The position numbers were made by a program, and so were the translations under genes. A stretch of DNA of 64,000 nt, from the NCBI GenBank assembly GCA_026003215.1, contig BPGV01000001.1, positions 1,242,466 to 1,306,465 of the forward strand, given 5' to 3'. How positions within the stretch are numbered: the first letter of the stretch is position 1; each line of letters begins with the position of its first letter. Below, one piece after another: positions 17,798 through 64,000 of this stretch. The stretch comes from Bacteroidia bacterium. Its GTDB lineage: Bacteria; Bacteroidota; Bacteroidia; SpSt-205. The notes under the pieces were generated by a model, which ran no database searches, was not told the DNA's origin, and saw only the letters and a list, made by a program, of their open reading frames with translations.

Positions 17798-20092
17798 TTA
17801 CCACAGCAGCGTCAGCCCTGCGGAGGGTAATATGGGGAGCTGATTATACCGCCGGGCGGTGATGCGGTCAATGTAAAAGAGGTTTGGGCGGTTGTAGGCG
17901 TTGAGGACGGTGAGGTTAGCTTCTATGAGGGCGAGGTCGGCGATGCGCCAGCGCCGCTTCACCATGAGGTCTAAGCGGTGATAGGCTGGCAGCCGCGCCC
18001 CGTTGTAGTTCGGGCTCAGGACGATGGCGAGCTGCCCTTGCTGGGTGACATAGGGGGTCTGGGAGCCTTGCAGGAAAAGGAGCTTCTCAAAGAAGCCCAG
18101 GGTTTGTGTAAAGGGCAGGCCACTCCCTAAGGTCCATCGCAGGGAGGCCTCCCAGCGGGTCTCGCGCATACGAGGCGTTTGTAGCCAGCCCCCCCACCGA
18201 TAAGTGGCCACCATGTTTGCCGTGTGGCGCCTATCCCACAGGGGAAAGTACCACATCCGAAAATCATACCGCCGATTGTACTGGAAGCTGTAGGTGCCAT
18301 ACACACTCCAGCGCGCATCCTGATACCGAGCCGTGAGGTCTGCCCCATACGCATACCCTATCTCTGTGAGGAAAGGGGGGTCTTCCGGGAAAAGTCGCTC
18401 CCGGTTGATAATGGTGAGCTGCGTAAAGCGCTTGTACCACCCTTCTGCACTGAGAAGCGCCGCGCCGAGTTGGTATTCCCCGCCAAAGGTGAGATGGTAA
18501 GCCTCCTGAAGCGCATGGGCAAGCTGCCGATTGGCGGCAAGCTCCGGCGCCGTAAGAAACCCCTGAAAGAGAATCACCACATCTCGGTCTGAAACCGCCG
18601 CCACCCAGTTTTGGGTATAACGACCGGCTGCAGCTTGAAGGCTCCACCGATTGCCGTTGTACTTGGCTCGCAGGCGAGGCTCTATCGAAAAGTATCCGTA
18701 GGTATTGTAAAAATGTAGGCGTAGGCTGGGTTCTACCACCGCCCGAGTGAAAAAGCGTATCTCCCCCTTTTCATCCAGCTCTTCTTTACGGAAGGCCTTT
18801 TGGTACCGTACATACGCCGCAAACTCGGTGTTGCTCTGGGACTGCTGGGTGATAAACCCTAAGGCGTTGGTAAAAAGGAAATCTGTGCTAAACCCCCGCA
18901 CATCTACGGCGTAGGCGAGCTCATCTGGGCCGAAGAGGTAAGAAAACATAAATCCCCCGTTGAAGCCGCCTATTTCGCTATACCGAGGGCGAAACTCCTG
19001 AAAGACCGAAAAGGTATTGCTGAAACGCGTATAAGCAAAGTTGCCTTGGATGCGCACGCGGGTACCGCTGGGGAGGTTAGAGAAGGTCATACCCGCCCCC
19101 CATTGGGTCCACCGATTGAGGCCATTCGCGCCTAAATCCACTTGGTCGGTTTGGCGGAAGCCAAAAAGTTGGAGCTGGTCCGGCCCCCGACCGAAGGTGA
19201 CCTTCCCATACAAGTCTTGAAACTGAAAGGGAAGCGAGTCTCGCAGGTAAGGATAGAGGCGAGGCGTAGCTTGTTGGATGTACCCCTGTCGAGCGGAGAC
19301 GAGCCAAGAGGCGTTTTTGGTCACCCAGAGGGGTCCTTCTACCAGCCCTCCCGCCACAAAGGGCGTAGCATACAGCCGCCCCCCCACTCGGTCAAAGTCC
19401 CCCGGCCGCGTCCGGATGTCTATCACCGAAGAGATACGTCCCCCGTATTCCGCGCCAAAGCCCGCCGAATACACATTCACTTGGCGCAAAATATCCGTCT
19501 CAAAGACGCTAAAAAGGGACAGCGTATGGAACGGACTGTAAATGATAGCTCCATCTAAGAGCGTGAGATTTTGGATGGGCGTTCCGCCACGGATATACAA
19601 CTGGCCGCCTTGGTCCCCGGTAAAGACTACGCCTGGCAGCACCTGGAGGTATTGGGCCACATCCGGCGCCCCAAAACTGGGAAGCTGGAATATCTGCCTC
19701 GGCGAAATAGGGGTTACTGCCACCGTCACCCGCGTGGGGTCTATCCGGGCAGGAGCAAGACTTTCTATGATTTCCACCGATTCCAGCTCGACAGAGCGGC
19801 TTTGGGCCCGGAGTTTGAGGGTAGCGACCGGGTGGCGTTTGTCTATGGTGACCTCCTGCCAGAGGGTATCAATCCCCAGAGCAGTGACGCGCAGCCGATA
19901 GGTACCATAGGGCACCCCTGTGAGCGAGAAAAGGCCCTCGGTATTGGTGAGAGTTCCCCGCTGTAAAGGAAAAAGCACCACTTGTGCGCCTATCACGGGT
20001 TCGCCTTCTGCGTCTATGATGGACCCACGGATGGTTCCTTGCGCAAAGAGGAAGCCCCCCAGCAGAAATAGCCCCAGTAGCCGAGCCAGCAC
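17798..20092 (-). CDS. TonB-dependent outer membrane receptor
   Basis: About 764 residues. The signal peptide ends LFAQ|G, then comes a carboxypeptidase-regulatory-like domain (GTIRGSIIDAEGEPVIGAQVVLFP, residues 20-105). A plug domain follows (LPSFGAPDVAQYLQVLPGV, GGQLYIRGGTPIQNLTLLDG) and a 22-strand-type barrel to the C-terminus. Imports an unidentified ligand using TonB/ExbBD energy; no SusD partner is adjacent, so it is not a Sus-type pair. I chose the GTG at 20092 because TACCTTTG ends exactly 4 nt before it; the TTG at 20095 would leave only 1 nt. Confidence 0.9.
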   Translation of the reverse strand: MLARLLGLFLLGGFLFAQGTIRGSIIDAEGEPVIGAQVVLFPLQRGTLTNTEGLFSLTGVPYGTYRLRVTALGIDTLWQEVTIDKRHPVATLKLRAQSRSVELESVEIIESLAPARIDPTRVTVAVTPISPRQIFQLPSFGAPDVAQYLQVLPGVVFTGDQGGQLYIRGGTPIQNLTLLDGAIIYSPFHTLSLFSVFETDILRQVNVYSAGFGAEYGGRISSVIDIRTRPGDFDRVGGRLYATPFVAGGLVEGPLWVTKNASWLVSARQGYIQQATPRLYPYLRDSLPFQFQDLYGKVTFGRGPDQLQLFGFRQTDQVDLGANGLNRWTQWGAGMTFSNLPSGTRVRIQGNFAYTRFSNTFSVFQEFRPRYSEIGGFNGGFMFSYLFGPDELAYAVDVRGFSTDFLFTNALGFITQQSQSNTEFAAYVRYQKAFRKEELDEKGEIRFFTRAVVEPSLRLHFYNTYGYFSIEPRLRAKYNGNRWSLQAAAGRYTQNWVAAVSDRDVVILFQGFLTAPELAANRQLAHALQEAYHLTFGGEYQLGAALLSAEGWYKRFTQLTIINRERLFPEDPPFLTEIGYAYGADLTARYQDARWSVYGTYSFQYNRRYDFRMWYFPLWDRRHTANMVATYRWGGWLQTPRMRETRWEASLRWTLGSGLPFTQTLGFFEKLLFLQGSQTPYVTQQGQLAIVLSPNYNGARLPAYHRLDLMVKRRWRIADLALIEANLTVLNAYNRPNLFYIDRITARRYNQLPILPSAGLTLLW

Positions 20093-20127
20093 CAAGCAAA
20101 GGTACTACGGTAGGCCCCTCCGCCAAG
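20093..20127 (-). promoter_or_regulatory. Promoter of the TonB-dependent receptor
   Basis: Minus-strand CTTG at 20124-20127, a 19-bp spacer, then TACCTTTG at 20097-20104, 4 nt before the GTG. Confidence 0.75.
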
Positions 20128-20188: not shown

Positions 20189-21496
20189 TCATTCTGTCAG
20201 GCGCCCCTGGTGATAGTCATCATACGCTTGAAGGTCTAAAAGACCGTGCCCACAAAGGTTGAAGAGTATCACGGGGCGAGTACCTGTATGCCGAGCTTCC
20301 ACAGCTAAGTCTATAACAGCTTTGACGGCGTGGGCCGCCTCCGGCGCAGGAATAATCCCCTCTGTGCGAGCGAAAAACTCCCCTGCCTCAAAAACGGCCT
20401 GTTGGGGATAGGCACGCGCTTCTATGTACCCCAAGTCATACAGGTGAGAGATAAGCGGTGCCATGCCGTGATACCGTAGTCCGCCTGCGTGGATGCGCGG
20501 CGGTATGAAGTCGTGCCCCAAGGTATGCATCTTGAGCAGGGGGGTAAGCCCAGCCGTATCCCCAAAGTCGTACCGATATGCTCCCTTCGTGAGGGAGGGA
20601 CAGCTCTCCGGCTCCACCGCTATAATGCGATAAGAGCGGTTGAGGGTACGCAGGCTCTCCCCTAAGAAAGGGAAGACTAACCCCGCAAAGTTGCTTCCCC
20701 CGCCTACTGCGCCAACCAAGATAGTGGGCGCTTCTCCGGCCATTTCCATCTGTTTGAGGGCCTCTAAGCCGATAACGCTCTGGTGCAAAAGCACATGGTT
20801 GAGCACACTCCCTAAGGCGTACTTGGCGCCGGGGTCAGCCAACACATCTTCAATCGCTTCACTGATGGCGATACCGAGGCTCCCCGGTGAGTCGCTGCCG
20901 TAAAGTTGTCGCCCAAACTCCGTACGGTCAGAAGGGCTGGCATAGACCTGCGCCCCATAAGCCTCCATAACCACCCGCCGAAGGGGCTTCTGGTGGTAGC
21001 TGATGCGCACCATATACACCCGCGTCTCTAACCCTAAGAGGCGACACGCCAAGGCCAGCGCTGAACCCCATTGGCCGGCGCCCGTCTCCGTGACCAGCGT
21101 ATGTACCCCTTCCTGGGCGTTGTAGTACGCCTGCGCAATAGCGGTATTGGGCTTGTGGCTGCCCGTGGGACTTACCCCCTCATACTTGTAATAAATGTGC
21201 GCAGGGGTGTCCAAGGCCTCCTCCAACCGGCGCGCCCGGAAAAGCGGCGTAGGCCGGTACTTTGCATACAACTCCAATACCGCTTGGGGAATGGGTACCT
21301 CTCGGGCGCCGCTCATCTCCTGCTCCACCAACGCCTTCGGAAACAAGCGCAAAAGTGGCGCAGGGTCCAGTAGCGGCTGCTTCGTACGGGGATCCAACGG
21401 CGGATCCATCGGCTTCGGTAAGTCCGGTACAATGTTGTACCAACTGCGGGGCATATCGCCCGCATGCAACCTATACGCGTGCATGTGCATAGGCAT
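20189..21496 (-). CDS. trpB2: Tryptophan synthase beta chain, TrpB2 type
   Basis: A 435-residue PLP enzyme condensing indole and serine to tryptophan. The N-terminal block [22 protein letters not shown] and insertions around DYYHQ-like loops mark the TrpB2 subgroup, which often works without TrpA. The PLP lysine is in [11 protein letters not shown] (about residue 113); [12 protein letters not shown] binds the phosphate. No other trp gene lies in the window. Several Met codons (21496, 21490, 21484) could start translation; the first is listed. It lies 128 bp after a short Trp-rich leader ORF with its own promoter, so expression is probably governed by Trp availability. Confidence 0.92.
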
Positions 21497-21624
21497 GGGA
21501 AAAGGATTGTCTGAGACGAAAAACCTTCCCTCCCCCGCGTGGCTTCACACAATAGATAAACCCTGTGCGCCGCAGGGGAGCGTGCTTAAAACCTTTTCTA
21601 AGCGCTGGACAGAAAAGGCCTATG
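21497..21624 (-). promoter_or_regulatory. Candidate tryptophan attenuator between leader ORF and trpB2
   Basis: This 128-nt untranslated leader can fold in competing ways. Stem A: CCUUUUCU (21618-21611) with AGAAAAGG (21599-21592), 8 bp, then UUUU at 21591-21588. Stem B: GAAAAGG (21598-21592) with CCUUUUC (21505-21499), which ends just before the trpB2 AUG. Stem C: CUCCCCUGCG (21580-21571) with CGCGGGGGAG (21539-21530), 10 bp with one G-U, followed 6 nt later by U5. A and B share a strand and exclude each other. A ribosome at the leader stop would cover the 5' arm of A; one stalled at the Trp codons would not. Confidence 0.6.
21588..21618 (-). terminator. Terminator-like stem A of the trp leader
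   Basis: 8-bp perfect stem, 11-nt loop, then UUUUAA on the minus strand, beginning 6 nt after the leader ORF stop. It resembles a weak intrinsic terminator but could equally act as the anti-structure that frees the trpB2 start. Confidence 0.5.
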
Positions 21625-21726
21625 TCAGATGAGGCTATGCCAAACCCACCCCCACCCCAACATAGGGGCATTCAGGAGGTCGCAGCTACTTACGAAAGAA
21701 AGCCGTACGCTTGGGTGGGTCAGCAT
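21625..21726 (-). CDS. trpL: trp leader peptide (33 residues, W-G-W-V-W)
   Basis: ATG at 21726, TGA at 21625-21627. The product ends MLGWGWVWHSLI: three Trp codons (TGG) within five codons, starting nine codons before the stop. A consensus promoter (TACCTTTG) ends exactly 4 nt before the ATG, the same spacing as the protein-coding genes here, and the next gene on this strand is trpB2. ACCCACCC at 21720-21713 is complementary to the Trp-codon stretch GGGTGGGT at 21651-21644, so translation would also disrupt a local stem. Caveat: the Trp codons fall in a G/T-rich run. No protein-family evidence is possible at this size; the call rests on promoter, content and position. Confidence 0.72.
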   Translation of the reverse strand: MLTHPSVRLSFVSSCDLLNAPMLGWGWVWHSLI

Positions 21727-21760
21727 GCCGCAAAGGTACGACCAAATTCGGATTTGCAAG
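21727..21760 (-). promoter_or_regulatory. Promoter of the trpL-trpB2 transcript
   Basis: Minus strand CTTG at 21757-21760, 18-bp spacer, TACCTTTG at 21731-21738, then CGGC and the leader ATG at 21726. The same spacing as the topA promoter. Confidence 0.78.
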
Positions 21761-24682: not shown

Positions 24683-24694
24683 TACCTTTGAGGT
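24683..24694 (+). promoter_or_regulatory. Promoter -7 box of glyA
   Basis: TACCTTTG at 24683-24690, then AGGT and the ATG at 24695. The nearest TTG is 25 bp upstream, too far for the usual spacer. Confidence 0.75.
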
Positions 24695-26008
24695 ATGCAA
24701 GACCCTATTTTCGGGTGGATAGAAGCCGAACGCCGCCGCCAAGAAGAAGGCTTAGAGCTCATCGCCTCCGAAAACTACGCCAGCCCGGCAGTATTGGCTG
24801 CCTTAGGCTCCGTCCTCAACAATAAATACGCGGAGGGGCTACCCGGCCGGCGGTACTACGGCGGCTGCGAATATGTAGATGAAGTAGAGCGGCTCGCCCA
24901 AGAACGCCTTAAGACCCTCTTTGGCGCCGAGTGGGTGAATGTCCAGCCCCATTCCGGTGCACAAGCCAACGAAGCGGTACTGCTGGCCCTCCTCAAACCG
25001 GGCGAAAAGCTCCTTAGCTTTGCCTTAGCCCATGGGGGGCATCTCACCCACGGTAGCCCCCTCAACTCCTCCGGCAAGCTCTACACCGTAGAACATTACG
25101 GCGTACGTCCAGACACCTACCGCCTGGACTATGACGAAATCCGAGAAAAGGCGCGCACCTTCCGGCCCAAAGTCCTTTTAGCTGGGGCCAGCAGCTATCC
25201 CCGGGATTGGGATTGGGCGGCCCTGCGCAGCATCGCCGACGAAGTAGGTGCCTTCCTGGTAACGGATATTGCGCATCCGGCAGGCTTGATTGCCGCCGAC
25301 CTTCTCAATGACCCCCTCCCCCACTGCCACATAGTCACCAGCACCACCCATAAGACCCTCCGCGGCCCCCGCGGCGGCGTGATTATGATGGGCAAGGACT
25401 TTGACAATCCCTTCGGTGAGCTTACCCCCAAAGGTCAGCCTAAAAAGATGAGCGCCTTACTGGATAGTGCGCTTTTCCCGGGGGTGCAAGGCGGACCGCA
25501 CATGCATACCATCGCCGCTAAGGCCGTAGCCTTCGGCGAAGCGCTCCAGCCGGCCTTTCGCACCTATGCCCGGCAGGTCATCCACAACGCCCAAACCCTC
25601 GCCCACACCCTCATGGAGCTGGGCTACACCGTCCTCACTGGCGGTACCGACAACCATATCGTTTTGATAGATCTGCGCAACAAAGGCCTCACCGGCCGAG
25701 ACGCCGAAAAAGGCTTAGAAAAAGCCGGCATCACCGTAAATAAAAACCTCATTCCGTATGACCCTAATCCCCCCCTGGTGGCCAGTGGTATCCGTTTGGG
25801 GACGCCCGCCCTTACCACACGCGGGATGACCGAGAGCGACATGCGCCAAGTAGCTCATTGGATAGACCAGGCGCTTACCCACCTCTCCGATGACGCTTTC
25901 CTTAGCCGCCTGCGGGAGGAAATACGCGAATACCTCAAAGCGTATCCGCTTCCTTATGCGACGGTGGCTTCGCTGAGTTTGGGCCACCTCTCCGCACCTG
26001 CTGAATAA
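24695..26008 (+). CDS. glyA: Serine hydroxymethyltransferase
   Basis: A 437-residue PLP enzyme interconverting serine and glycine with tetrahydrofolate. [38 protein letters not shown] and the PLP lysine in [15 protein letters not shown] (about residue 220) are all present. Slightly longer than the usual 415-425 residues. Its last 74 nt overlap the convergent transporter gene, so the two 3' ends are coding on both strands. Confidence 0.97.
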
Positions 26009-32275: not shown

Positions 32276-33480
32276 GGGTGAAGCTGCTTTTGCAAAACTC
32301 CCAAGGTCCTACCTGCGCGTGTAAAGGCTTCTATAGCCCGGTCTATGTGTTCCCGCGTGTGGGCTGCGCTGAGCTGGACGCGGATACGGGCTTGGCCCTT
32401 AGGAACCACGGGATAGGAAAACCCTATCACATAAATCCCCTCTTCCAACAAAGCATCTGCAAAACGATGGGCCAGCACGGCATCGTACAACATGATGGGG
32501 ACGATGGGATGGTCGCCCGGCTTTATGTCAAAGCCGGCTTTGGTCAGCTCCTGGCGGAAGTAGCGGGTATTTTCCTCTAAGCGGTCCCGCAGCTCTGTGG
32601 TCTCGGAGAGCCAGCCGAAGATCTCCAAGGCGGTGCCAGCAATCACGGGGCTAAGGGAGTTGGAAAAGAGGTAGGGACGCGACCGCTGCCGAAGGTACTC
32701 AATCAACGGGGCAAGCCCAGCCACATAGCCCCCCATCGCGCCCCCTAACGCTTTTCCCAAGGTGCCGGTGAGGATAAGCCGTTCGTCTCCTAAGAGCCCA
32801 AACTTCTCGGGGGTGCCTCGCCCCGTGGCCCCTACAAATCCCGTCGCATGCGAGTCATCCACAATCACCAACGCATCGTATTTGCGGGCTAAATCCAAAA
32901 TCTTATCCAACGGCGCATAATCCCCATCCATGGAAAACACCCCATCGGTGACAATCACGCGAAAGCGGGCATTTTGCGCTTCTTGCAGGCGAGCTTCTAA
33001 CTCGCCCATATCGGCATGCGCATACACATAGCGGCGGGCCTTCGTGAGACGAATCCCATCTATGAGGCTGGCATGATTGAGCGCATCCGAGATAATGGCA
33101 TCTTCTGGCCCAAAAAACGGCTCAAATACGCCGCCGTTTGCGTCAAAACACGCTGCGTATAAAATACTGTCTTCGCAGTGCAGGAAGTCGGCTATGGCTT
33201 TTTCTAAGGCTTTATGTACGGTTTGGGTTCCGCAGATGAAGCGTACCGACGAGAGGCCATACCCCCATCGGTCTAAGGCTTTATGGGCGGCTTCGACGAC
33301 GCGCGGATGAGCCGAGAGACCGAGGTAGTTATTCGCACAGAAGTTGAGGACCTTCCGGCCATCGGCTAAGGTGATTTCCACGCCTTGGGGGGAGTCGATC
33401 AGCCTTTCGGATTTATACAGGCCCGCTTCTCGGATGTCTTGGAGTTCCTTTTGGATGTGGTTCAATAAGGCGAGAGACAT
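32272..33480 (-). CDS. kbl: Glycine C-acetyltransferase (2-amino-3-ketobutyrate CoA ligase)
   Basis: A 402-residue alpha-oxoamine synthase. [43 protein letters not shown] and the PLP lysine in [15 protein letters not shown] (about residue 243) define the family; the sequence fits Kbl better than BioF or HemA. Cleaves 2-amino-3-oxobutyrate with CoA to glycine and acetyl-CoA in threonine breakdown. No tdh is adjacent. ATG 33480 is chosen because TATCTTTG ends 4 nt upstream; upstream in-frame codons run antisense through yebC. Confidence 0.92.
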
Positions 33481-33492
33481 GCCACAAAGATA
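33481..33492 (-). promoter_or_regulatory. Promoter -7 box of kbl
   Basis: TATCTTTG on the minus strand at 33485-33492, 4 nt before the ATG. Only 9 bp separate it from the yebC box on the other strand. Confidence 0.72.
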
Positions 33493-44167: not shown

Positions 44168-44804
44168 ACCAGTAGGTGAGAGTCATGAGCATGCCGTAGT
44201 TATGCCACTGCTGGAAAAGGCCCCCGGCTAAGTTATTGGCACCATGCCAAAAGCGCAGCCCAAACGTAAGGTACCCCGGCCCTACCAAGTACCCCGCCCC
44301 AGCCCCTACATTGAGCGCTATCTCACCCCGCCGCACATCACGCGATTCCCCCTGCCCAAACTGCACCTTACGCGTCTCTACCGCGCCAGTGAGATTATCT
44401 CTCTCCCAATACTTCCCATACACCAAGAGGCTGGACGAAGGCCCCGCCTCTATAAAGAAAGCCTCAAACCGGCGCACCCACCGCCATACCCCTAATACCG
44501 CCACATCCATACTCCACAGGTTATATCGCCAATCCGTAAGGAGGTTCCGGTCGGTAGAACGGCGCTGCGTCACCCCTATTTCACCCTGGACCGCCCACCA
44601 GCCCTTAAGGTCTATTGGATGTTGAAGCGCTATCCCTCCATAAAAGCCCCCACCCCAGTACGACCGCGAGGTTATGTCGGCTAAGCCTTTTGTCTGGTAT
44701 TGGCCCCAGCTTAGCCCTAAGCGCGGGGCATACCACGTAGCCTTCCCCTGATTCTGGGCGGATAATAGGGCCAACATACCCCCCAAAATACTTAATACAC
44801 GCAT
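44142..44804 (-). CDS. Outer membrane beta-barrel protein
   Basis: 220 residues. The signal peptide ends LALLSAQ|N, then amphipathic strands rich in Tyr/Trp (GFYGGIALQHPIDLKGWWAVQGEIG, GAGAGYLVGPGYLTFGLRFW) to a final strand YGMLMTLTYWYDD. Resembles small porin-like or PorT-style barrels but I cannot name the family. Own promoter, and it drives mazG by overlap. Confidence 0.72.
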   Translation of the reverse strand: MRVLSILGGMLALLSAQNQGKATWYAPRLGLSWGQYQTKGLADITSRSYWGGGFYGGIALQHPIDLKGWWAVQGEIGVTQRRSTDRNLLTDWRYNLWSMDVAVLGVWRWVRRFEAFFIEAGPSSSLLVYGKYWERDNLTGAVETRKVQFGQGESRDVRRGEIALNVGAGAGYLVGPGYLTFGLRFWHGANNLAGGLFQQWHNYGMLMTLTYWYDDSLRGE

Positions 44805-44816
44805 GGGGCAAAGGTA
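44805..44816 (-). promoter_or_regulatory. Promoter -7 box of the barrel-mazG operon
   Basis: TACCTTTG on the minus strand at 44809-44816, 4 nt before the ATG at 44804. Confidence 0.74.
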
Positions 44817-47203: not shown

Positions 47204-47662
47204 ATGCGAGGGCTCCTCGGCGTTTCCCTGCTCCTCTGGGCTCAGCAGCCCCCAGAAAATACCGTCGTGCCCTTCACTCTCTCCGACAAAGAAAGACTTA
47301 TCCGCCTCGAAAGCCAGCTCCAAGCCCATAAAGAAGCCTCCCAAGCTCAACTCAACGCGCTACAGAGGGAAATGAGTTCTCTCCAAAGGGAAGTTCAAGA
47401 TATCCGCACTCGCTTAGACCGGCTGGAAGAGCGTATGGACATGCAGTTTTACGCACTCTTAGGAGCCATGATAGGCATCGCCGGCGCCATCATCGGCGCT
47501 ATCTTCTGGGACCGCAGAAAAACCCTCCAACCCTTAGAGCAAAAAATCGCCGAAATCCAAAAAGACACCTCGCGCCTCCAAAACCTCCTCTATGCCCTCC
47601 ACGAATACGCCAAAAACCACCCCGACCTCGCCGCACTCCTGCGCCAGTATGGCGCTCTTTGA
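47204..47662 (+). CDS. Coiled-coil membrane protein, array copy A
   Basis: 152 residues: signal peptide (MRGLLGVSLLLWAQ|Q), a conserved PENTVVPFTLSDKERLIRLE segment, a periplasmic coiled coil (about 30-80), one membrane helix (FYALLGAMIGIAGAIIGAIFW), then basic DRRK and a second helical region ending KNHPDLAALLRQYGAL. Charge distribution predicts the C-terminus inside. Similar small coiled-coil proteins occur in Bacteroidetes and other bacteria without known function. Copy A has the longest central variant (NALQREMSSLQREVQ). Confidence 0.85.
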   Translation: MRGLLGVSLLLWAQQPPENTVVPFTLSDKERLIRLESQLQAHKEASQAQLNALQREMSSLQREVQDIRTRLDRLEERMDMQFYALLGAMIGIAGAIIGAIFWDRRKTLQPLEQKIAEIQKDTSRLQNLLYALHEYAKNHPDLAALLRQYGAL

Positions 47663-61719: not shown

Positions 61720-61731
61720 TATCTTTGCTGC
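61720..61731 (+). promoter_or_regulatory. Promoter -7 box of the E1 dehydrogenase gene
   Basis: TATCTTTG at 61720-61727, then CTGC and the ATG at 61732. Confidence 0.76.
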
Positions 61732-64000
61732 ATGAGCCGTGTGAAAGAGGCAAAGCTCCCCGGCCACCTCACCCGCGAAGCTATATTACAGGATTACCGC
61801 ATAGCTCACCTAAGCCGACAGCTAAGCCTCATCGGCCGCAAAGAGGTCCTTACCGGCAAAGCTAAGTTTGGCATCTTTGGCGATGGCAAAGAGCTACCCC
61901 AGCTGGCTATGGCGCATGCTTTTCAGCCGGGGGACTTCCGCTCAGGCTACTACCGCGACCAGACCTTCATGCTGGCGGCAGGCCTACTTACCCCCGAGGA
62001 GTTTTTTGCCCAGCTGTATGCCCATACCGACTTGACTGCAGAGCCGGCGTCTGGCGGCCGCCAGATGAATAACCACTTTGCGACGCCTTTCTTGAATACT
62101 CAAGGACAGTGGCTTCCCCAGGCTTCTCGGAAAAATGTCGTTTCAGATGTCTCCCCTACCGCCAGCCAAATGCCCCGTTTAGTGGGTTTAGCGTGGGCTT
62201 CGGTACTGTACCGCAAGCTGCCCGAGCTGGCGACTCTGGTAGCGTTTTCGCAGAATGGCAACGAGATTGCTTGGGGCACGATTGGAGATGCCAGCACCAG
62301 CGAAGGTCTCTTTTGGGAAGCCATAAATGCCCTGGTCGTCTTACAGGCCCCCGCTATCGTTTCCGTATGGGACGATGGGTATGGGATTTCCGTTCCCGTG
62401 GAATACCAAACCGCCAAAGGCAGCATCTCCGAAGCTTTGGCCGGCATGCGCTCCGAAAAGGGCAAACCCGGACTCAGCCTCTATGTAGTAAAAGGCTGGG
62501 ACTATCCCGCTTTGATAGAAACTTACCTTAAGGCAGCCGAGCGGGTTCGTCGACTGCATGAGCCGGCTCTTATCCATGTGGTAGAGCTCACACAGCCCCA
62601 AGGCCACTCTACCTCCGGCAGCCATGAACGCTATAAGTCCCCCGAAAGGCTAACCTGGGAACGGGAATATGATGGACTGGTACACTTTCGCCGCTGGATC
62701 CTTGAGCAAGGACTCGCCACCGAGCAAGAACTGGACACGATTGAAGAAGAAGCCCGAGAAGCCGCCCGTACCGCCCAAAAGCACGCATGGGAAGCCTACC
62801 TCACCCCCATCCTCCAGTTCAAGGAAGAAGCACTCGCCCTCACCCCTCCTTCCCCGGAGAGAGAAGCTCTCGCCAAACTCAAGCCCGTCACCTACCGAGA
62901 GGTCTTAGAAAGTGTGCATGTGGTGCTTAGACGCTATCGCAGCTTTCCCGAGCGAGCCAAACTCCTTCACTGGTACAAGGAGTACTATGCCGACTTGGAG
63001 AGCCGCTACGACACTTGGCTTTACCGAGGTACCGCCTTAGAAGTACCGCCTGAGCCCCCTCGCTACCCCGCCAATCCGGACCGGGTAGAGGGGTTTCGTA
63101 TCCTAAATGCCGCCTTTCGGGCAGCCCTCCAACGCGACCCACGCGTGGTGATTTTCGGCGAAGATGTCGGCAAGCTGGGCGACGTCAATCAAGGATGTGC
63201 TGGTCTGCAAGCGGAATTTGGAGAGCTGCGGGTAGCCGACACAGGCATTCGCGAAGCTACTATCATCGGCCAGGGGATTGGCTTAGCCTTGCGAGGCCTA
63301 CGCCCCATCGCCGAAATCCAATACTTGGACTATCTCCTGTATGCTGTCCAAATTCTCTCCGATGATGTAGCTCCCCTCTCCTGGCGCACGGTAGGTCAGC
63401 AAAAGGTGCCGCTTATCGTCCGCACGCGAGGGCACCGCTTGGAAGGTATATGGCATTCGGGTTCGCCTATGCAGCTCCTCTTAGGAGCCTTGCGCGGCAT
63501 GTACATCCTCGTGCCTCGCAATATGACCCAGGCCACAGGCATGTACAATACCCTCTTAGCCGCCGACGAACCCGCCCTCCTTATTGAGGTGCTGAATGGG
63601 TATCGCCTGCGCGAACCCCTCCCGGAAAATATCGCAGAACTTAAGGTGCCTTTAGGCGTGCCAGAGATACTCCGAGAGGGCACCGATATTACGGTAGTCA
63701 CTTATGGCGCTACCTGCCGGATCGTTTTAGAAGCAGCCGAGGCCTTGGCAGAGTTAGGAGTCTCTTGTGAAGTGATAGATGCACAGACCCTCCTACCCTT
63801 TGATGTGCCGGGGGTGATTGGGGACTCTTTACGAAAAACGGGCCGTATCGCCTTCATAGACGAAGACGTCTCCGGCGGTGCCACAGCCTACATGATGTGG
63901 CAGGTCTTGGAGCGACAAAAAGGCTACTACTGGTTAGACTCCCCGCCCTTGACTATTCCGGGGAAAGACCATCGGCCCGCCTACGGCTCCGATGGCGACT
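61732..64000 (+). CDS. Fused alpha/beta E1 of a 2-oxoacid dehydrogenase, 3' truncated
   Basis: 756 codons visible, open at the window edge. The alpha half includes the thiamine diphosphate motif [17 protein letters not shown] (about residue 185) ending [10 protein letters not shown], and [15 protein letters not shown] linker helix follows, then the beta half from about residue 456: [53 protein letters not shown] and [17 protein letters not shown]1 decarboxylates pyruvate or branched 2-oxoacids and reductively acylates E2 lipoyl groups. One-polypeptide alpha-beta fusions are common in Bacteroidetes; the substrate is not decided. Confidence 0.92.

Follow-up and report, generated by a model that had tools for sequence, protein, structure and literature searches.

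Is a short, tryptophan-rich open reading frame in front of a trpB2 gene a regulatory leader peptide, or merely a product of the sequence composition around it? The question is raised by a locus on the minus strand of the window, by which we mean the whole stretch of Bacteroidia DNA that was analysed (64,000 nucleotides). A preliminary description had placed there a promoter, 4 nt, an ATG, 33 codons ending in W-G-W-V-W-H-S-L-I, a stop codon, 128 nt and trpB2, and this layout was confirmed to the base. The order on the minus strand is TTG, 18 nt, TACCTTTG, CGGC and the ATG at 21726; the 33-codon peptide is MLTHPSVRLSFVSSCDLLNAPMLGWGWVWHSLI, its TGA ends at 21625, and 128 nt lie between the stop and the trpB2 ATG at 21496. 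The elements are listed below with their state in five trpB2-bearing loci of the genus (L001, the window locus, and four further ones, L002-L005).

21757..21759, minus strand: TTG, -33 element of the leader promoter; TTG in all five genus members, with a spacer of 18 nt (16 in L004).
21731..21738, minus strand: TACCTTTG, -7 box of the leader promoter; aligned in all five loci.
21625..21726, minus strand: ORF of the Trp leader with 33 codons and a TGA, predicted to be leaderless (AUG at +1); ORF kept in all five.
21714..21719, minus strand: CCCACC, codons 3-5, 5' arm of a predicted helix within the ORF; invariant in all five.
21640..21650, minus strand: GGTGGGTTTGG, 3' arm of the same helix, containing the two conserved Trp codons of W-V-W; invariant in all five, and in each of them in the reading frame of the ATG.
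20189..21496, minus strand: trpB2 (TrpB-like PLP enzyme, TIGR01415, assigned by profile score), the leader's target; start perhaps at 21490.

The divergent gene is bshA, and its profile match starts at residue 55 of the longest plus-strand ORF, so that the leader is intergenic and does not lie under bshA. A third Trp codon is found at 21652-21654 and is also present in L003 and L005. When the upstream region of the window was considered alone, a Trp cluster as dense was obtained in 1.3% of dinucleotide shuffles. The cluster is thus only moderately unlikely by itself, and the concern in the preliminary description that a G/T-rich run could give the Trp codons by chance was fair for this one sequence.

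The concern was removed by four relatives. The genus sample comprised 11 genomes, five with trpB2 and six without (JANXDD010000115.1, a Bacteroidia MAG, is another record of one of the five), and the trpB2 of the other four carriers is 84-90% identical to that of the window. All five loci exhibit a promoter, exactly 4 nt, an ATG and an ORF of 32-38 codons with W-V-W in frame, the -7 box being an exact TAnnTTTG in four of them and CACCTTTG in L005. CCCACC occupies codons 3-5, 7 nt from the A of the ATG, in five of five, and the nucleotides GGTGGGTTTGGC, Val codon included, are likewise invariant. The leader peptides are MLTHPSVRLSFVSSCDLLNAPMLGWGWVWHSLI, MQAHLPLVVKKSSLSPANTMVQSGVRGWVWRPCQA, MSSHLSLASTLFSIHTAYGQNIFMRGWRWVWRPTFHSC, MQTHHPYSVYFLTTLPYNLTNVGVRGWVWRPI and MHAHPVHLQAISQRNVPVSRCEFTPLGWGWVWRR, those of L002 and L004 containing only two Trp codons. 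The middle of the leader drifts, and for most pairs its similarity is hardly above that of shuffled sequence. The distance from CCCACC to GGTGGG is 63, 66, 69, 63 and 72 nt, every value divisible by three, and the frame is open in all five. The chance of four relatives being open and in phase is approximately (0.51 x 0.36 x 0.39 x 0.41)/81 = 4e-4, a figure that leaves the conserved promoter and ATG uncounted. The alignment of related trpB2 5' regions, proposed earlier as a check, accordingly returned, in five of five loci, a short ORF in which TGG codons cluster while the flanks drift, and this conservation rules out a chance ORF from the G/T-rich run. Nor can the conservation be put down to the divergent bshA, since in one carrier genome (G003) the leader-trpB2 unit adjoins a different upstream gene.

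The same alignment bears on the possibility that selection acts on a signal in the RNA or DNA itself (CCCACC...GGTGGG, GGCGCC), such as an operator or a helix bound by a protein, with the ORF as a by-product. The invariance of GGTGGGTTTGGC down to the Val codon, and of a CCCACC that is complementary to the other arm, is what such a signal would give. However, the spacing between the arms varies in multiples of three with the frame open in all five loci, whereas an operator would keep helical and not codon phase, and the ATG stands at the leaderless spacing of the genome; we regard this explanation as improbable. Pattern scans of the 11 genus genomes returned the promoter-ATG-CCCACC pattern without mismatch at the five trpB2 loci only, and no exact match away from trpB2 was found that would place the same leader before other genes of the genus. 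It is therefore highly improbable that the ORF encodes a small functional protein unconnected with trpB2 control, or has no function, even if short ORFs are numerous and action in trans is on record for certain leader peptides (peTrpL of Sinorhizobium, PMC7298713), because the exact element occurs only before trpB2 and the peptide lacks conservation in its middle part. A Trp-sensing leader before trpB2 in the genus of the window is, on the other hand, well supported.

The promoter spacing of the leader follows a rule of the whole genome. The pattern TAnnTTTG-N4-ATG occurs at 12 sites in the window against 0.28 expected, and at 11 of these the ORF has 100 aa or more; the remaining site belongs to the Trp leader, the sole short ORF. 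Examples in the window are:

24683-24697, plus strand: TAnnTTTG-N4-ATG site.
33478-33492, minus strand: TAnnTTTG-N4-ATG site.
44802-44816, minus strand: TAnnTTTG-N4-ATG site.
61720-61734, plus strand: TAnnTTTG-N4-ATG site.

Throughout the genome (2.27 Mb) there are 223 such sites, compared with 16 for the reversed control pattern, and a similar excess was observed in ten congeners. In Flavobacterium psychrophilum the promoter box is located at -12 to -5 (PMC9723704); this geometry, applied to the window leader, puts +1 at the A of the AUG. As the 4-nt spacing is a genome-wide rule for gene starts, the leader ORF is probably leaderless, and the rule, together with the F. psychrophilum box position, supports the earlier suggestion that the leader AUG would lie almost where the transcript starts. 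Leaderless mRNAs make up only 5.5% in F. psychrophilum (PMC9723704), so that the genus of the window, judged by promoter-ATG spacing, looks unusually rich in them. The window also holds a tandem family of four neighbouring plus-strand ORFs of 144-152 aa (at 47204, 47694, 48653 and 49122) with near-identical starts, MRGLLGV/I, and a leaderless promoter for each.

The target gene was identified with a TIGR01415 score of 643 bits against a curated cut-off of 519 (TrpB2 class, COG1350 / TIGR01415), and the nearest solved chains are 6hul_B, 4qys_B and 6hte_B, named tryptophan synthase beta chain 1 or 2. Its conserved start is probably the ATG at 21490 (Met3), where the alignment of the relatives begins. 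Downstream, the next gene has a leaderless start of its own, and trpB2 is probably monocistronic for this reason:

20092..20103, minus strand: TAnnTTTG, 4 nt and GTG at 20092, start of an ORF of 764 aa.

The rest of the pathway is missing. No TrpA match over the curated cut-off was obtained in any of the 11 genus genomes, and IGPS (trpC) and the N-terminal anthranilate synthase domain (trpE) were absent from all 11; 14 of 14 control genomes were positive. TrpB1 was not found in the genus with a TrpB2 query, which matched at TrpB1 level in many other genomes of the class. With trpA, IGPS, trpE and TrpB1 missing, trpB2 is an orphan, and presumably a salvage enzyme that makes Trp from imported indole. 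A leader responding to Trp starvation fits such a gene, whose expression is probably raised when Trp is scarce. Indole salvage has been reported for Thermococcus kodakarensis, as cited in PMC11085991, and an isolated trpB2 occurs in Pyrococcus horikoshii, in a genome without other trp genes and with its function unidentified (Merkl 2007, PMC1854888). Taken on its sequence conservation, then, the ORF is a real, conserved Trp leader peptide before an orphan trpB2.

A quick tree places the TrpB2 of the genus together with an Armatimonadota sequence, in a clade of Armatimonadota, Lentisphaerota and Verrucomicrobiota and apart from all other Bacteroidota trpB2 tested. This placement suggests that the gene was probably acquired horizontally, and that the leader probably arose independently of the other Bacteroidota leaders described below. 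No Trp leader was seen at the trpB2 of the nearest Armatimonadota relative.

How could the leader act on trpB2? In all five loci the start of the ORF is predicted to form a helix of 9-13 pairs with the Trp codons, the CCCACC/GGTGGG pairing probability being 0.97-1.0 in four of them and 0.25 in L002. The helix exhibits no covariation, because both arms are invariant. We think it quite likely that the trpB2 transcript opens with the 33-codon ORF, a leaderless gene for a leader peptide, and that the progress of the ribosome over the Trp codons of this ORF senses charged tRNA-Trp. The first ribosome would load on the 5' AUG while the RNA is emerging. When Trp is plentiful it would complete the ORF and depart, CCCACC would pair with GGTGGG and close the AUG, and the unprotected transcript would be lost ahead of trpB2, with termination or decay as the candidate last step. 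When Trp is scarce, a ribosome held on the Trp codons would block the helix, and transcription or translation would reach trpB2. The contest between helix and ribosome over the Trp codons is, on the folding predictions, likely to be the sensor state. Reinitiation from the leader to trpB2 is not favoured, the gap of 128-246 nt being long.

A different read-out would be that of a classical attenuator, in which stalling of the ribosome would allow an antiterminator to block an intrinsic terminator, the terminator differing from species to species. The window does contain two hairpins between the leader and trpB2:

21592..21618 (with TTTT to 21588), minus strand: weak hairpin CCTTTTCT/AGAAAAGG followed by TTTT, -8.2 kcal/mol; a possible species-specific terminator.
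21528..21582, minus strand: strong hairpin CTCCCC...GGGGAG (-30.2 kcal/mol), followed by U5 after a few nt; not in the relatives.

The weak hairpin fails a stricter terminator test and is not common to the relatives, and no intrinsic terminator is conserved before trpB2 across the five genus loci. The strict scan returned nothing in L001, L003 and L004; L002 gave a candidate at shuffle level and L005 a weak one, and no convincing antiterminator competing with a terminator was found in any of the five. In L001 the strong hairpin folded unaltered when the RNA covered by a ribosome, placed either on the Trp codons or at the stop, was masked.

The same gene family provides the controls. Among 396 Bacteroidota genomes, 125 have trpB2, and an ORF with a WWW, WWWW or similar run was found upstream of it at no fewer than 13 of the loci fetched outside the class of the window (L164, L168, L170, L172, L175, L176, L180, L185, L196, L160, L198, L177 and L192). 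In 13 of 13 tested there is a strong, GC-rich terminator (-16 to -24 kcal/mol) together with an upstream segment competing for its 5' arm, an arrangement matched by 0 of 60 shuffles per sequence, whereas a terminator with antiterminator was found in none of the five genus leaders. In seven aligned members of these other-class leaders the antiterminator pairs in 98% of cells and two pairs have changed on both sides; since shuffles reach an equal score in 76 of 500 cases, the covariation of the antiterminator is suggestive only. No Rfam model matches these leaders, and none for a leader or a T-box matches the window or the L002-L005 leaders. Genomes with other-class leaders lack trpA in some cases and have it in others. 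A classical attenuator in the genus, which this anatomy in other classes and the window hairpins would favour, is consequently rather unlikely, given that all 13 controls pass the scan that the genus loci do not.

Several further matches were recorded in the survey. About 184 nt upstream of trpB2, L178 has an ORF ending in T-W-P-W-R-R-stop (TGGCCTTGGCGCCGCTAA), close to the L005 leader end (TGGGTTTGGCGCCGCTAA) and with no terminator; it is possibly a second leader of the type seen in the window, or else chance. Trp-rich matches from other phyla were dropped in L048 (a repeat-like stretch) and L059 (where the frame reads on from upstream sequence), as were the 'PKWRNW' ORFs of family f61, which look like a tRNA-Leu gene translated from its 5' end.

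A terminator and an antiterminator were thus searched for and not found, and we do not class the genus leader as a classical attenuator. The trpL-like logic attributed to it in the preliminary description stands for a conserved Trp-codon ORF before a Trp gene, in five of five loci, but not for the terminator switch, seen in 13 of 13 leaders tested elsewhere in the phylum. The leader resembles a Trp attenuator on its sensing side, which is well supported. In the absence of a conserved intrinsic terminator, the candidates for the last step are Rho, species-specific weak terminators and RNA stability. Of 37 large ORFs in the window, only 5 are followed by a terminator-like hairpin no more than 110 nt past the stop, compared with 2 of 37 after shuffling, and intrinsic termination looks rare in the window. 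Rho is present in all 11 genus genomes and, with so few terminator-like 3' ends, it would be reasonable to invoke Rho or some other path. The window's own leader has no C-over-G bubble of the kind usual for Rho loading; the C-minus-G excess is matched by only 10% (L003) and 17% (L005) of random stretches and is unremarkable in L001, L002 and L004. The account as a whole, a Trp-starvation leader lacking a terminator, in which the place of the ribosome on the Trp codons would decide whether the 5' AUG is closed and the transcript abandoned before an orphan and horizontally acquired trpB2, is offered as a tentative one, possible but doubtful in all its parts together.

The lack of an intrinsic terminator, as in tna, also invites comparison with an arrest peptide of the TnaC kind, where the nascent W-x-W-V-W-R would sense free Trp or indole and arrest the ribosome. 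The target uses indole and W-V-W-[RH] is conserved; against this, species differ in how far the last Trp codon lies from the stop, there is no conserved Pro, and further upstream only the His at position 4 is conserved. We consider arrest of this kind quite improbable beside sensing of charged tRNA-Trp.

The role of TrpB2 outside trp operons is an unsettled question, and a Trp-codon sensor on an orphan trpB2, with counterparts before trpB2 in further Bacteroidota classes, opens it to testing and ties the enzyme to Trp supply. One phylum with terminator-type leaders and with a terminator-less, probably leaderless one offers a natural comparison of attenuation read-out, in bacteria without Shine-Dalgarno sequences. 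Vitreschak and co-workers reportedly predicted amino-acid attenuators in Bacteroidetes/Chlorobi (2004). No description of leader-peptide attenuation of TrpB2 in Bacteroidota was found in the literature searched, subscription papers lying outside its scope. Clues of leader-peptide attenuation before amino-acid operons exist for F. psychrophilum (PMC9723704).

Among known systems, a T-box, which serves control by amino-acid starvation, lies directly upstream of trpB2 in a Dictyoglomaceae MAG (L033:2719-2955), in contrast to the window and the genus relatives tested, which have none. The mycobacterial and actinobacterial cys leader (PMC1262725) likewise combines a conserved amino-acid-rich ORF with the lack of a terminator hairpin, and Rho has been proposed there, but the amino acid is Cys and not Trp, the phylum is another, and a Rho-type composition is not evident in the species of the window. 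Ribosome-mediated Trp attenuators (trpL of enterobacteria; those of Corynebacterium and Streptomyces, PMC1262725) have, as here, a promoter, a short ORF with clustered Trp codons and a Trp-making gene. The genus leaders also share with them an ORF-to-gene gap, of 128-246 nt, with no promoter box inside; in none of the five loci does this gap hold a TAnnTTTG. Unlike the trpL class, they precede an orphan trpB2 with the rest of the pathway missing, have no conserved terminator/antiterminator, and their Trp codons form the 3' arm of a predicted helix with the ORF start. In Sinorhizobium meliloti trpL/rnTrpL (PMC7298713) the transcript begins with the leader ATG, as predicted for the genus leader from promoter spacing; S. 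meliloti combines a 14-aa peptide with a true terminator, and its target is trpE(G), in contrast to 32-38 aa, no terminator found and trpB2 in the genus. The other-class Bacteroidota leaders (e.g. L164, L170 and L180) belong to the same gene family and phylum and have a Trp-run ORF some 100-200 nt upstream. They differ in their WWW/WWWW runs, in a hairpin-TTTTTT terminator with antiterminator and in a TrpB2 placed elsewhere in the tree, and yet one of them, L170, shares TACCTTTG, 4 nt and ATG with the window leader.
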